Assembly (NCBI GenBank): GCA_013151955.1
Contig: JAADHH010000027.1
Coordinates: 1-37,656 of the forward strand
DNA: 37,656 nucleotides
Source: Chloroflexota bacterium
GTDB taxonomy: Bacteria > Chloroflexota > Anaerolineae > Ardenticatenales > JAADHH01
Direction: 5' to 3'
In this document: piece after piece, positions 25,441 through 31,251 of the stretch
Layout: each line of letters begins with the position of its first letter
Numbering within the stretch: position 1 is the first letter of the stretch
Notes under the pieces: model-generated
The model's input: only the letters and a program-made list of their open reading frames with translations
What the model was told of the DNA's origin: nothing
Databases searched by the model: none
Made by a program: the position numbers and the translations under genes

Positions 25441-26031
25441 TCAATGCGTGGGCAAGTCCGCCTCGTAGGTGAGGATAATCGCCTCGGCCACTTTTCTCAT
25501 GGGCTGTCGCGTGTTCATGCTCATTTTCTGGATTTTTCGGAATGCATCTGCCTCGCGAAGACCCTGCGAATCCATCAGGATGCCTTTGGCCCGGTCGACC
25601 AGTTTGCGGGTTTCCAGGGCATCGCTCAAATCTTCGACCTCTTTCTCTGCGGCACGAAAATCACGGAAACGGGCCAGGGCCACTTCGATTGCCGGCGGCA
25701 GGTCGCTCTCGCGGAAGGGTTTCATCAGATAGCCGACAACGCCGGCCTCTGCACCCCGATCGATCAAATCGCGTTGGCCATAGGCCGTAAGGAGCAAGAC
25801 CGGAGCAATGCGCTCGCTGGTCAGGATGCTGGCGGCCTCGATGCCATCCATGCCGGGCATTTTTATATCCATGATTACCAGGTCGGGGCGGAGTTTACGG
25901 GCCAGGTTGACGGCACTCTCCCCGTCTCCCACATCCCCTACCACCAGGTAGCCCAACGCGGTGAGCATTTCGTTCAGGTCTCTTCGAGGGACCGACTCGT
26001 CATCAGCAATAATGATTCGAGTACGCGACAT
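25441..26031 (-). CDS. ANTAR-domain response regulator (PdtaR-like)
   Basis: A 196-residue regulator with an N-terminal receiver (acidic residues in IIADDESV, phospho-acceptor Asp55 in LVIMDIKMPG, lysine in YLMKPF). The C-terminal ANTAR domain (about 135-190: DALETRKLVDRAKGILMDSQGL, then AFRKIQKMSMNTRQPMRKVAEAII) is an RNA-binding domain. ANTAR proteins bind twin small hairpins in nascent RNA and stop terminators from forming. GGAGGAGG precedes the ATG. It is 21 bases after the kinase gene, a pairing known from PdtaS-PdtaR and EutW-EutV. It therefore probably controls genes at the RNA level; its own operon has a terminator in the leader (27726-27761). Confidence 0.93.
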   Translation of the reverse strand: MSRTRIIIADDESVPRRDLNEMLTALGYLVVGDVGDGESAVNLARKLRPDLVIMDIKMPGMDGIEAASILTSERIAPVLLLTAYGQRDLIDRGAEAGVVGYLMKPFRESDLPPAIEVALARFRDFRAAEKEVEDLSDALETRKLVDRAKGILMDSQGLREADAFRKIQKMSMNTRQPMRKVAEAIILTYEADLPTH

Positions 26032-26052: not shown

Positions 26053-27537
26053 TCAATACTTGCCTTCCCGTATCGTCTTTGGAATATGTGCTCCAGCGCA
26101 TACCCCGTGTTCACTCCGAAAAACGAACTCTCCTTGCAGGTCCTCTTCCACCAATGTACGGACGATCTGCAGCCCAAGGTTGCTGTTTTGGCTCAGATCA
26201 AAGCCCGGTCCTAAGCCCCGTCCATCGTCTTGCACGATAATACGCAGCATGTCTCCTTCATCTTCCAGCGTGATCAGGATTGTCCCCGCTTGGCCAATAT
26301 CAAAAGCGTGTTCCAGGGCATTTTGCAGCAACTCGTTAATCACCAGGGCACAGCTTGTGGCTTGTCGTGCCGAGAGGAAGACGCTGGTACCCCGGACACG
26401 AATATTGACCTGGTTCTTTGGATTCAGTGTACTTTGCGCAAACTGGCCGGCAATCCGATTGGCTACCTCCTTCACGTTGATGATTTGCCCCTCATGTTGG
26501 GAGAGGAATTCATGAACAACGGCTACGCTAAGAATGCGATTCACGCTTTCGTTCAGAATCTCCTTTACATTGGGGTCCTCGACCCGTCGCACCTGCATAC
26601 GCAACAAAGAAGCAATCGTTTGCAGATTGTTCTTCACACGGTGGTGGATTTCCTGAATCATCGCTGCACGAACCGCTTTTTCCTGGGCCACGCGACGTGC
26701 CCGGGTGTTGTCGTGCAACGTAATCAAGATTCCTACGGTGCGGGAATTTCCCCAACCCCAGGACCACCGGTTATGAAGAAATGGCAGCTTCCAGGGAGAG
26801 CCAACCAGCGGTATCGCTTTTCGCACCCAAAAGAACTCGCCCTCTGCGGTTTCCTCCTCCAGGCAGATTCCTTCTTTGAGGGCACGCTGGGCCAGTTGCG
26901 CATCCGTGGTATCCAGGTCGGTGAGCAGCTTCCCGACCAAGTTGTCCGTGTACCCCAGTTTCCGGTAGAGTTTGGTAGCCAGACCACTCATATACAGAAC
27001 ACGGCCGTTGGTATCTACGACAACCAGCCCATCGTGGTCGGCAAAGGGAGACAGGTTTTCGACACCGGGCAACCCCTGCCGCAAAGCCGTGTGTACCAGG
27101 GTGTGCAACATCCGCTGGAAGTTTGGGTGGCGGTGACGGTGGCGCTCATGTTCGATTAAGCTCTTTTCCAGGCTCAGGACTCCAGTAACGTCACCGTTGT
27201 CCGCCCGAATCGGGAAGATTTCCTGGATCACGTGGGTGCGATGGCCGCTCAGACGGCGCTCACTGGTCAGGGAGCGACCATTTCGGAATACGCGCTGAAC
27301 GGAAGGGTAATCCTCGGCATCAAACACGCGACCAATCAAATCTTCTTGGTGTACCGGAGAGACAGAGTGCGGACGGGCTTGAGCAATCACTTGCACCTGG
27401 TTGTCATTTCGGCGGCAAAAGACAAAAATGTCGGCCCGGCTGATGTCGGCTAAGATCGGCAACGATGCCATGATAGGCGTCAGCCACGACTCTTCCGCAG
27501 CGCAATTCTTTTGTTGACTCTGGACAACATTGTCCAT
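26053..27537 (-). CDS. PdtaS-like sensor histidine kinase (HisKA_2 type)
   Basis: A 494-residue soluble kinase. Residues about 15-150 form a GAF-like N-terminal sensor as in PdtaS. About 160-285 form a PAS-like domain (DGLVVVDTNGRVLYMS onward). The HisKA_2 dimerisation motif is EIHHRVKNNLQTIASLL, with the phospho-acceptor at His298 or His299. The ATPase domain shows ALVINELLQNALEHAF, QDDGRGLG and NLGLQIVRTLVEEDL. It is expected to phosphorylate the ANTAR regulator encoded next. The ATG follows AAGGGTGG by about six bases. The upstream region holds, going away from the gene, a miniature element inserted 45 bases from the ATG, an intrinsic terminator and a consensus promoter. The ligand is unknown. 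Confidence 0.9.
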   Translation of the reverse strand: MDNVVQSQQKNCAAEESWLTPIMASLPILADISRADIFVFCRRNDNQVQVIAQARPHSVSPVHQEDLIGRVFDAEDYPSVQRVFRNGRSLTSERRLSGHRTHVIQEIFPIRADNGDVTGVLSLEKSLIEHERHRHRHPNFQRMLHTLVHTALRQGLPGVENLSPFADHDGLVVVDTNGRVLYMSGLATKLYRKLGYTDNLVGKLLTDLDTTDAQLAQRALKEGICLEEETAEGEFFWVRKAIPLVGSPWKLPFLHNRWSWGWGNSRTVGILITLHDNTRARRVAQEKAVRAAMIQEIHHRVKNNLQTIASLLRMQVRRVEDPNVKEILNESVNRILSVAVVHEFLSQHEGQIINVKEVANRIAGQFAQSTLNPKNQVNIRVRGTSVFLSARQATSCALVINELLQNALEHAFDIGQAGTILITLEDEGDMLRIIVQDDGRGLGPGFDLSQNSNLGLQIVRTLVEEDLQGEFVFRSEHGVCAGAHIPKTIREGKY

Positions 27538-27573
27538 AGCTGTCCACCCTTACTCTCTTCATAGCCTTTGACC

Positions 27574-27721
27574 GGCGATTCGTATCTTCTCAATAATTCG
27601 GGGTAGGGGCACGGCCTTGCGCCTGCCCTTGCCGGCCTTGCCCCTGCCCCGTAGGGCGACCGCTGCCCCGTAGGGCGACCGCAAGGGTACGCCCCTACTC
27701 TTTGAAAAGATACGGCGATTC
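27574..27721. mobile_element. Miniature inverted-repeat element, copy 2, with 8-bp target duplication
   Basis: A 132-bp element at 27582-27713 is flanked by perfect direct repeats GGCGATTC (27574-27581 and 27714-27721). It is an inverted, shorter relative of the copy at 15293-15462, with the same ends (GTATCTTCTCAATAATTCGG and, at the other side, TTTGAAAAGATAC) and the same inner GCCCCGTAGGGCGAC units. It sits between a terminator and the start of the PdtaS-like kinase gene. Confidence 0.88.
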
Positions 27722-27725
27722 CTAG

Positions 27726-27761
27726 AAAAAAAGTGGCCGGCACGATACGAACAGCGGCCAC
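27726..27761 (-). terminator. Intrinsic terminator ahead of the PdtaS-like kinase
   Basis: On the minus strand, GTGGCCG (27761-27755) pairs perfectly with CGGCCAC (27739-27733) over a 15-base loop and is followed at once by seven T residues (27732-27726). It works only leftward. It may end the rarA transcript, attenuate transcription into the kinase operon, or end a small RNA from the promoter at 27907-27934. Confidence 0.75.
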
Positions 27762-27906
27762 CAAGTAGTACATTTGCCGTCAACGTGTTTGTCAGAATGT
27801 AGAGATGAGGTACAGTCCACGGCAGTTTTTCAACTGTAGGCCACGTACCAGAAAGTCCAACCCCCTTTTTCCACTGTTCCGTAGCGCGTCCGACGACATA
27901 CGATTC

Positions 27907-27934
27907 ATTATATCCGATTGCACAGATTTGGCAA
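27907..27934 (-). promoter_or_regulatory. Promoter between rarA and the kinase operon
   Basis: On the minus strand, TTGCCA (27934-27929), a 16-base spacer and TATAAT (27912-27907), beginning 23 bases after the rarA stop. Transcription would start near 27900, meet the terminator about 140 bases later and, if it reads on, reach the kinase ATG after about 360 bases. Confidence 0.65.
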
Positions 27935-27956
27935 GTCCGAAACGGTACGAGCCACC

Positions 27957-30203
27957 CTAGCAGTCATCCGGCGGCGGCGCGCTCGTGGCGGTCAGGAAGG
28001 CGACGTGCATTGTCCAGGGAATGCGCTGCCCACGCAGCTTGCGTTCGAAGAGAGCCTGCACTTGGGCGATTTCGTCGCCGCTCAAGTGACCTTGGAGGCG
28101 TTGCCGGTATGTGGGGCGGCTGCCCGCGGCCCGCTCCCCAAACCAGCCGGCCAGCAGGGTAGCCGTGATTTGCAGCTCGGTCGCTTGCTGCTCGACGGTG
28201 ATTCGCACGTCTGCCAAGGCGGCCTCTTCGGCAGCCGCGCGCAGGTCGCCGGCATCCCAATTGACCCGTGGGTTGTCCGGGTCTTCATAGATTGCCTCCT
28301 CGGCAGCCTCCACCCGGCCGGCAAGGTCGGCGCCCAGCGTGGAGAGGTCCACCAGGCGATAGAGTCGCGGCGTGTGCCTGGCAATCACGTCGGCCAGGCT
28401 GATTCGCCCGCCGGCCACGAGGAGGGCCGCAACCATACGGAACGCGGTCGTTTTGTCTCCGCACCCCAGCAAGGCATTGCGGCCGACAACGGCGTCGAAC
28501 GTGAGCGCGGGGGCGTGTTCGGCAAGGATGCCGGGCAGGGTCGTCAAATCGCCTTGCAGAATCAGGGGCCGTTGCAGCTCGGGCAGCCGGTTCGCCATCT
28601 CGCGTATGGCGCCGGCCTCCTCTGCAGTGTGTGCCAGCACCCAAACGCCCCCTTCCGGTGTGCGCCGGAGTGCCTCCCACGTCAAAAGCCCGCTGCCGGC
28701 GTGCAGATCGAGGAGGACGTGGTGGCGCTGGAGTTGCGCGCCCTCCAGCACGCGATCGCGCGTCCGGCTCAAACGTTCACCGGCCTGGGAGATCACCCGT
28801 TGCAGCCAGCGTTCGCTGGCCGGATCGGTCGGCCCAAAGGTCAGCACTTCCGGTGGAGCGCCCACATCGCCCTCAACCATGGCCGCCAGTTGCGCCTCGC
28901 GACGCCGTTGCACCTCCTCCCCGATGCGCGATTCGTAGCCTTGATTCCCCGGCTGGTAGAAGACCTGTCCTTGCAGACTGGCCGGCAGATATTGTTGGGC
29001 CACCCAATGATCGCGGTAGGCATGGGGATAAATGTACCCCTTGCCGTGGCCAAAGCCGTCCTTGTCGCGACTGGCATCTTTCAGATGGGTGGGCACCTCC
29101 CCCTCTCGTTCCTGTTCGACGACCGCCAGGGCATCGAAGAAGGCGAAGATCGAGTTGGATTTGGGCGCGGTCGCCAGGTAGAGCGTCGCCTCGGCCAGAT
29201 GGAAGCGGCCTTCGGGCAGGCCCACCCGGTCGAAGGCCTCCGCACAGGCATTGACGGTGCGAATCGCCTGGGGGTCGGCCAGGCCGACGTCTTCACCGGC
29301 GAAAATGAGCATCCGGCGAAAGATAAAGCGGGGGTCTTCGCCGGCGTAGATCATCTTGGCCAGCCAATAGAGGGCCGCGTCCGGATCGGAGCCGCGCAGT
29401 GACTTGATGAACGCGCTGATCGTATCGAAGTGGTAATCGCCCTCTTTGTCGTAGAGCACAGCCCGCCGCTGGATCGATTCTTCGGCCACTTCCAGGCTGA
29501 CGATGATCTGGCCCGCTTCATCGGGGACCGTCGTCTCCACGGCCAGTTCCAGGGCGTTGAGCAGGGCCCGCGCGTCGCCGTTGGCCACGTTCACCAGGTG
29601 GGCCAGCGCCTCCTCGCGAACGACGACCGGCAACGCGCCGTAACCGCGGTCCGGGTCTTCCAACGCTTGCTGCGCGATCTGGCGCAGGTCTCCTTCGCTC
29701 AGCGCTTTCAGTTGGAACACGCGGCTGCGACTGACCAGGGGACGGTTGACCGAGAAGTAGGGATTTTCTGTGGTAGCACCGATGAACACGACCGTGCCAT
29801 TCTCGACCCAGGGCAACAGGGCATCTTGCTGCGCCTTGTTCCAGCGGTGTACCTCGTCCAGGAAGAGGGTGGTACGCTGGTTGTAGAGCCGGCGGCGCTC
29901 CTGCGCTTCGGCGGTCACGCGGCGGATGTCCCGCACGCCGGCGAGCACGGCGTTCAGCGTGGTGAAGTGTGCGCGGGTGGTGTTGGCGATGACGCTGGCC
30001 AGCGTCGTCTTGCCGGTGCCGGGCGGGCCGAAGAAGATCAGCGATGAAAGCTGGTCGGCCTGGATGGCACGGCGCAGCAGGCGGCCGGGTCCCACGATGT
30101 GTTCCTGGCCGACAAATTCGTCCAGGGTACGCGGACGCATCCGGGCCGCCAGCGGGGCTTCCTTTGTCATTCGTTCCTGCAGGGCTTGATCAAAGATGTC
30201 CAT
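27957..30203 (-). CDS. rarA: RarA/MgsA AAA+ ATPase fused to a methyltransferase-like domain
   Basis: A 748-residue protein. The N-terminal part (to about 440) is a RarA/MgsA ATPase, a clamp-loader relative that acts at stalled replication forks. It has Walker [10 protein letters not shown] (59-67), Walker B LFLDEVHR (113-120), sensor GATTENP (142-148) and the C-terminal [27 protein letters not shown]-type helical domain. From about 495 a Rossmann-like domain follows, with [18 protein letters not shown] in the place of a SAM-binding motif. Fusions of RarA to such a domain are known in cyanobacteria and some other phyla, with unknown function. The ATG at 30203 follows GGAGG by seven bases. It is 16 bases after the WecA-like gene. 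Confidence 0.9.
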
Positions 30204-30219
30204 TTTTTGCCTCCGCGCC

Positions 30220-31251
30220 CTATGTCTCGCGCCGCCGTGCCATCGAGCCCAGGAGCGAGAGAGCCAGCGCACCCAGAATGAGCAGGGCCAGTAATTTATC
30301 CAGCGGCGAGGGGAGCAGCAAGGCCAAAGCGCCCGCGCCGGCACAGATGGCGTAGTAGAGCAAGACCACACGCCGTTGCGATAGCCCGATGTCGTACAGA
30401 CGATGGTGTAGATGACCGCGGTCGGCCTCCATCGGAGAGACACCGCGCCGGATGCGGGTGATGATCAGCCAGGCCACATCCAGAATGGGTACGCCGAGCA
30501 CCAGCAATGCCGTGGCCAGTTTCGCGCCGGCCATGATCGAAAGTGCGCCGGCTGCAAAACCCAGGAAAAGGGAGCCGGAGGAGCCCATGAAGACGCGCGC
30601 CGGATGAAAGTTATAGGGCAGAAACCCCAGCGTGGCACCGAGCAAGGCCAGAGGCAGCAGGGCTACGCTGTACTGCCCCAGCCGCCACATGTGCAGAAAG
30701 AGTACCAGGCAAATGATGGCCACGACCCCATCGGCCAGCCCATCCAGCCCATCCAACCAGTTCACCGTGTTCATCATGCCCACCAGCCAAACCAGCGTAA
30801 TCGCCAGAGTCACGGGCCAGGGGAACCAGATTTGCCGGCCGGTGAGCGGATTGGTCGTCACCTCGATGAACAGCAGGAAGCGGATGCCCACCAGGGCAAT
30901 GGCGATTTGAGCGGCAAGTTGTGTCCAGGGGCCAAGGGCGCGTTTATCGTCCCACAGTCCCACCAAAACGGCCAGCGTGCCGCCGAGCAGCAATCCCTCC
31001 AGCCGGGTGATTTCATTGGGATCATGGCGGGCCAGGGGAATAAAGATGCCAACTGCGACGGCCAGCAGGAACGCAAGGTACAGAGCAATTCCCCCTAGAC
31101 GAGGTATGGGGTGATCGTGGACACGCCTCGGTGTGTCCGGAATGTCGAGCACGCCCCATCGCCGGGCCAGGCGAGCAACCAGGGGAGTGATCGCAAAGGC
31201 CGTGAGCCATGCTACCCCCCCAATCAGGCCGAAGGAGGCTGGCAGGCTCAC
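30220..31251 (-). CDS. WecA/MraY-family glycosyl-1-phosphate transferase
   Basis: A 343-residue integral membrane enzyme with about ten hydrophobic segments that moves a sugar-1-phosphate (usually GlcNAc-1-P) from UDP-sugar to undecaprenyl phosphate, the first step of cell-surface glycan synthesis. Active-site motifs are present: the aspartate pair Asp101-Asp102 (LWDDKRALGP), NTVNWLDGLDGLADG (161-175), FMGSSGSLFLGF, and the HIH-type loop DRGHLHHRL, which fits WecA-like enzymes. The start is a GTG that lies one base from the stop of the zinc-finger gene upstream; there is no clear ribosome site, so translation is probably coupled. mraY itself would usually sit in a division cluster, which is absent here. 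Confidence 0.92.
   Translation of the reverse strand: MSLPASFGLIGGVAWLTAFAITPLVARLARRWGVLDIPDTPRRVHDHPIPRLGGIALYLAFLLAVAVGIFIPLARHDPNEITRLEGLLLGGTLAVLVGLWDDKRALGPWTQLAAQIAIALVGIRFLLFIEVTTNPLTGRQIWFPWPVTLAITLVWLVGMMNTVNWLDGLDGLADGVVAIICLVLFLHMWRLGQYSVALLPLALLGATLGFLPYNFHPARVFMGSSGSLFLGFAAGALSIMAGAKLATALLVLGVPILDVAWLIITRIRRGVSPMEADRGHLHHRLYDIGLSQRRVVLLYYAICAGAGALALLLPSPLDKLLALLILGALALSLLGSMARRRET

Follow-up and report, generated by a model that had tools for sequence, protein, structure and literature searches.

The window, that is, the whole stretch of 37,656 nucleotides that was analysed, comes from a Chloroflexota bacterium and carries on its minus strand a gene pair of the PdtaS/PdtaR two-component type, namely a PdtaS-type GAF kinase with a HisKA_2 domain and a response regulator with an ANTAR output domain. 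The closest solved relative of the regulator is Rv1626 of M. tuberculosis (PDB 1s8n, E = 3.5e-60). The ANTAR gene adjoins the kinase gene in 30 of the 30 loci checked, and in the window genome only among these loci does rarA adjoin pdtaS. The rarA-like reading frame (27957-30443, minus strand) ends at 27957, upstream of a promoter-terminator unit. It encodes 828 residues, with RarA/MgsA domains extending to about residue 513; the last 300 residues appear by eye to be of the methyltransferase type and have no Pfam match. A first-pass annotation of the interval between rarA and the kinase gene had described a near-consensus promoter, a strong terminator and an inserted mobile element, followed by the kinase and ANTAR regulator genes. 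All of these are present, and the two genes lie downstream (Table 1).

Table 1. Features of the pdtaS-antar locus, with positions in the window
Feature	Position	Strand	Remarks
PdtaR-like response regulator gene	25441..26031	-	Receiver and ANTAR domains
PdtaS-like cytosolic histidine kinase gene	26053..27537	-	GAF_PdtaS, HisKA_2, HATPase_c
Hexaloop hairpin TGGAC[AATGTT]GTCCA on the kinase start codon	27521..27536	-	A1 and G4 in the loop; closed by A-U, then C-G
Alternative pairing of TGGACAGC (27546-27539) with GTTGTCCA (27528-27521)	27521..27546	-	Rival fold to the hexaloop hairpin, with the ATG in the loop
Target-site duplication GAATCGCC, one copy	27714..27721
Target-site duplication GAATCGCC, other copy	27574..27581
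MITE-like element, 10-bp inverted ends (one mismatch)	27582..27713	-	67 matches genome-wide; ends and duplications also seen in other copies
Intrinsic-terminator-like hairpin GTGGCCG/CGGCCAC with seven T	27726..27761	-	Corresponds to the GGYCGA...TCGRCC hairpins that precede pdtaS in relatives
Promoter-to-terminator stretch	27762..27900	-	tRNA-Pro(GGG) here in many relatives; no tRNA in the window
Promoter TTGCCA-16-TATAAT	27907..27934	-	Resembles the promoter of tRNA-Pro-pdtaS units in relatives

The promoter matches the consensus at 11 of 12 positions; as good a match is reached by 0.2% of dinucleotide-shuffled versions of the leader and by two sites in the whole window. The terminator has a loop of 15 nt between its stem arms (27761-27733), and its T tract occupies 27732-27726. 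When loops of up to 16 are allowed, 0.05% of the leader shuffles contain a terminator as good; a hairpin scan with loops of at most 8 misses it. The inserted element lies between the terminator and the kinase gene. It is 132 bp long, has the ends GTATCTTTTC/GAGAAGATAC and is flanked by the 8-bp duplication GAATCGCC. Being short, multi-copy and without coding capacity, and having inverted terminal repeats and a target-site duplication, it qualifies as a MITE; an exact 8-bp duplication was also found at four of seven other copies checked. Across the genome (L163-L181) the family shows the ends GTATCTTYTC/GAGAAGATAC and 8-bp duplications, in versions of 111-170 bp.

The leader of the window has no tRNA. 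No Rfam family attains its gathering score there and nothing below that score is convincing, and the folding of the leader is no better than chance (z -0.85 relative to shuffles). Nothing resembling it above chance was found in 60 related genomes, nor were relatives of it found in the GTDB contig collection; the window genome is the sole member of its family in the compared genome set. The hairpin CAGTT-GAAA-AACTG, also listed in the first pass, does exist in the leader, two bases from where it had been placed (27836-27823), and no conservation of it was seen. The possibility that the leader is a 6S RNA arose from its size and its long end-to-end pairing, and was rejected because 27690-27960 has no match to RF00013 and a real 6S RNA is located elsewhere in the genome. 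The latter lies at L001 1501-1683 (G000:C107:7278-7460) and scores 70.7 bits to RF00013.

Of 150 class genomes, 92 have the kinase. A set of 130 leaders was assembled, consisting of the first 30 loci and the upstream regions of 100 further class kinases. Of the 123 class leaders that reach 300 bases, 62 carry a tRNA-Pro(GGG) no more than 350 bases from the kinase, and in 52 of these 62 a terminator-like hairpin follows the tRNA. A GGYCGA...TCGRCC stem is common to many of the hairpins between the tRNA and pdtaS. In Anaerolineae loci such as L035, L040, L049, L057 and L087, tRNA-Pro(GGG) immediately precedes pdtaS-antar. The window leader aligns with the promoter-tRNA-hairpin layout of L055, with gaps at the tRNA; the homology of the promoter and terminator to the tRNA units is based on modest alignment scores, of which this one is the best (z 4.7, 60 shuffles). 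Between the promoter and the terminator of the window there is no tRNA. Since the same promoter-hairpin frame often encloses tRNA-Pro(GGG) in the relatives, the unit in the window looks like a tRNA unit minus its tRNA, and 27934-27726 is probably the shell of a former tRNA-Pro(GGG) transcription unit from which the tRNA has been lost. The loss would have occurred by descent, the MITE having landed behind the terminator since, and the promoter would also serve the kinase through terminator read-through. The only close copy of tRNA-Pro(GGG) in the window genome is at C50, with a promoter-like sequence and a T tract of its own. A tRNA relic was also sought by direct alignment of the leader to tRNA-Pro, which was not significant. 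A regulon defined by the conserved terminator-hairpin sequence GGYCGATGG was discarded as well, all 30 matching loci being inside reading frames and without a T tract.

Several families (f31, f10, f28, f22, f30 and f41) retain a terminator-like hairpin upstream of pdtaS although no tRNA is close by. In L074 and L056 such a hairpin is 16-26 bases from the kinase start, which is too close for a separate promoter. It is therefore possible that some attenuation of the pdtaS operon itself takes place, and terminator-like hairpins may act on the operon in this manner.

When single hexaloop hairpins were scanned, a cluster appeared at the kinase start. In the window the hairpin (27536-27521) has the ATG in its 5' arm and lies just outside the segment considered in the first pass. 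Its stem has five base pairs, where hexaloop stems were required to have at least three, and the pairs covary in relatives. Hexaloop hairpins whose loop has a purine as its first base and G as its fourth (R1/G4), on a stem of at least 4 bp, were counted relative to the pdtaS start, the start sites being chosen by script. In the 130 leaders there are 44 such hairpins, from 18 families, with the loop starting at 0 to +14, as against 1 to 6 for each of the other loop classes. At -15 to -1 there are 17, from 12 families, as against 0 to 3 for each other class, and there is no peak elsewhere nearby. In 561 other genes of the same genome no R1/G4 excess is seen at the starts (17 in each bin). A wider R1/G4 hairpin regulon in this genome was accordingly dropped, there being no excess at these 561 starts and no A1/G4 pair.

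The loops and stems of the relatives are constrained in several respects. Loop position 4 is G in 47 of 52 cases, and position 1 is A in 27, G in 24 and C in 1. In the group as a whole, therefore, the requirement for A1 is loosened to one for a purine. The base at position 4 stays G whichever of V, A, G, E or D is encoded. The silent site of the GAC codon in the stem is kept in 49 of 52 cases (background 52%), and that of the GTC codon in 46 of 52 (background 26%); the Val codon adjoining the stem is at background, with all four codons used. GTC is dominant in 17 of 19 families (p = 1e-8, P values here taking leaders or families as independent and ignoring kinship within families). Compensatory stems are exemplified by TGAAC[AGTGTT]GTTCA, CAAC[ACAGGT]GTTG and TGGAT[GATGTA]ATCTA, the last with a two-sided change that turns Val into Ile. 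The covariation of the stem pairs is 0.208, compared with 0.166 in shuffles (0/500) and at most 0.113 in slid controls.

A test set, comprising 27 kinases from other classes and 13 further members of the class, was fetched after the R1/G4 rule had been stated. In these loci the region from -30 to -1 contains 15 R1/G4 hairpins, compared with 8 for the seven other loop classes combined. Several of the R1/G4 hairpins are situated entirely in non-coding leaders and have unrelated stems, namely TGTC[AACGAG]GACA, AGTC[GATGAA]GACT, TAGTC[GATGAG]GACTA, TGGC[GACGAA]GCCA and GATC[AAAGAA]GATC. Counted leader by leader in the other Chloroflexota classes, the result is weaker, with R1/G4 in 9 of 27 and other loop classes in 0 to 5. 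About half of all leaders have no convincing hairpin. Among these are the five members of family f2 that have the gene, which are of the same order.

The known targets of ANTAR proteins provide the terms of comparison. Those that have been characterised consist of two hexaloop hairpins with A1 and G4. In the eut genes of E. faecalis the linker between them is 5-12 bases, and the closing pairs AC/GU of eutP P1 are required by EutV, induction being abolished when they are swapped (PMC3369931). EutV also needs A at loop position 1. Linkers of 2-25 were admitted in a search for actinobacterial targets (PMC8164766). The loop in the window has both A1 and G4, and its closing pairs, A-U then C-G, are those of eutP P1. 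An adjacent second hairpin at a linker of 2-25 nt was not found in the window, and the hexaloop hairpin has a competitor in an alternative pairing. The fold of 27512-27546 that contains the latter has an energy of -11.1 kcal/mol (z -2.69, window only); a longer stretch of the window folds no better than shuffles. Because of the single hairpin and the competing pairing, the site falls short of the full definition, and it is best described, from its sequence, as a putative site that is like an ANTAR target.

The reading preferred here, at a probability of roughly 0.58, is that the locus combines the shell of a former tRNA unit with a start-codon hairpin through which the ANTAR protein encoded by pdtaS-antar controls the translation of its own operon. 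The PdtaR-like protein from the same operon, activated by PdtaS upon a presumed physiological signal, would bind the start-codon hairpin. Once bound, it would block the access of ribosomes at the pdtaS start, and the translation of pdtaS, and through it that of the operon, would be lowered. The pair would thus repress itself, a direction which is suggested by analogy. In mycobacteria, according to earlier work cited in PMC8164766, targets overlapping the ribosome site are translationally repressed by the ANTAR protein in its activated state, and in M. tuberculosis PdtaR binds RNA near a start codon (PMC8131098). A broader proposition stands at about even odds, namely that in several Chloroflexota classes pdtaS-antar carries an ANTAR-type site where its own ribosome site and start codon lie, partly within coding sequence, which would provide self-feedback on translation, with a purine-1/G4 loop rule and with one hairpin sometimes sufficing.

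The promoter-terminator unit has been considered in other ways. The small RNA of about 170 bases suggested in the first pass would, in its fuller form, be a free RNA of about 175 bases with a function of its own, the kinase being expressed by weak read-through. The strong promoter and terminator with no gene between them speak for such an RNA, but the leader has no Rfam match and no relative above chance in the 60 related genomes, folds no better than shuffles and is distinct in place from the 6S RNA of the genome; this explanation is considered unlikely. It had also been allowed that the terminator could simply serve rarA. That it does so is possible, because rarA ends upstream of it and convergent gene ends often have terminators. 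That it merely ends rarA transcription, the kinase having another promoter, is quite improbable, however, given that the 11/12 promoter is situated between rarA and the terminator, that rarA is next to pdtaS in one of 30 loci, yet terminators ahead of pdtaS are common, and that, from the terminator to the kinase, no promoter-like site has more than 8 of 12 matches. The third suggestion, autogenous antitermination, survives in its first part, autogenous control being plausible, but not in its second, antitermination at 27761-27733. According to it, the ANTAR protein would bind the leader RNA (27900-27726) and prevent the terminator, whereupon the operon would be read through. Promoter, terminator and ANTAR operon are indeed in the right order, and terminator-like hairpins without a nearby tRNA are found in several families, including those of L074 and L056 close to the start. 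In EutV targets, however, the second hairpin overlaps the terminator (PMC8934654), and in the window no A1/G4 hairpin does so. Nor does the leader contain tandem A1/G4 hairpins, in agreement with the failure of the first pass to find paired hairpins with A/G loops. In the 130 class leaders, tandem A1/G4 pairs with stems of at least 3 bp number 5, compared with 4.5 expected, and with stems of at least 4 bp there are none. Moreover, R1/G4 hairpins show no peak near terminators, the short leaders of family f2 have no such terminator, and the only ANTAR-like hairpin of the window is about 190 bases from its terminator. In relatives, the terminator-like hairpin is usually the end of a tRNA-Pro(GGG) unit. 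Antitermination at this terminator is accordingly rated very unlikely. Within family f40 only (L077, L187, L192, L195, L196, L202 and L212), a hairpin with an A1/G4 loop, CCTC[AKCGCC]GAGG, occurs 20-60 bases before the terminator.

With regard to the start-codon hairpin, its arms coincide with codons 2 and 5 of an M-D-x-V-V motif that is itself conserved, and the protein could therefore cause it. It might then be a by-product of the motif and of codon choice, with no role at the RNA level. Nearly every case has the motif in frame, and most start-codon cases overlap its D..V part. At the start of the ANTAR gene a comparable chance hairpin, which was examined as a second site and dropped, is explained by the receiver protein motif IIADDE and indicates that protein motifs can mimic such hairpins. 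A by-product, however, would hardly be expected to freeze GAC and GTC and leave the neighbouring Val codon free, or to keep G4 constant whatever the residue encoded there. Furthermore, compensatory changes alter the protein (V to I in L188, D to N in L063), the 5' arm in L103 is upstream of the only available start, and the same loop rule holds in the non-coding leaders of other classes; an origin in the protein motif is thus highly improbable. The hairpin could also regulate initiation through a recogniser other than the ANTAR protein, or by itself as a structural brake, in keeping with the presence of one hairpin in the window and with a loop position 1 that is not strictly A. Against this, the hexaloop R1/G4 rule and the AC/GU closing pairs are those of ANTAR sites, and an ANTAR gene is beside pdtaS at every locus checked, which makes recognition by something else, or by nothing, rather doubtful.

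Autogenous translational control by the ANTAR protein, as preferred here, has likenesses to several known systems. It shares with the actinobacterial and mycobacterial targets (PMC8164766) the G4 hexaloops at the ribosome site or start codon, a PdtaR-type regulator and, by inference, translational control. It differs in that it concerns another phylum (PMC8164766 does not mention Chloroflexota), in that the target would be the operon of the ANTAR regulator itself, in that position 1 is A or G, and in that a second hairpin is clear in some families only, none having been found in the window. The EutV/EutW leaders of E. faecalis (PMC3369931, PMC8934654) have the same A1/G4 hexaloop and, in eutP P1, the same AC/GU closing pairs, but there the second hairpin is on the terminator and antitermination results, whereas the hairpin described here covers the start codon and the terminator is some 190 bases away. 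The PdtaS/PdtaR system of M. tuberculosis (Rv1626, PDB 1s8n; PMC8131098) has a kinase of the same PdtaS GAF family and an ANTAR response regulator; in the Chloroflexota loci checked, by contrast, the genes are adjacent and form an operon with a candidate site of its own.

A further parallel is offered by the receptor NmPAL, which contains an ANTAR domain. In engineered use one hairpin can suffice for this receptor (PMC11381354). A single small hairpin can be bound there and made to control a Shine-Dalgarno site; the placement is engineered and the receptor is light-sensing.

RNA targets of ANTAR regulators have been described for Firmicutes, Proteobacteria and Actinobacteria, and Chloroflexota are not mentioned in the literature cited. 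If the reading is correct, the site on the regulator's own operon would be a case of autogenous translational control by an ANTAR protein, and the opening codons of a gene would be seen to contain a regulatory hairpin. It would also provide a concrete RNA for binding and structural work in a phylum with few genetic tools. The terminator, probably inherited from a tRNA unit, is thereby set apart from the likely ANTAR site.

Two hairpins at a linker of 2-25 nt are found in some relatives, for example L035, L041, L063 and L067. In family f96 (L265, L269 and L280), which has an R1/G4 hairpin, a second AACGAA stretch without a clear stem recurs at a constant distance, about -15 relative to the start of the kinase, and may represent a second ANTAR loop. 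In some families the second hexaloop hairpin is just upstream and carries the ribosome site, as in L035 (TTAGCTT[AAGGTC]GAGCTAG), L063 (TTTTCTC[GGAGCT]GAGAAAG) and L041 (GCTC[GAGGTC]GAGC). The L035 leader folds into two tandem hexaloop hairpins around the ribosome site and the start codon.
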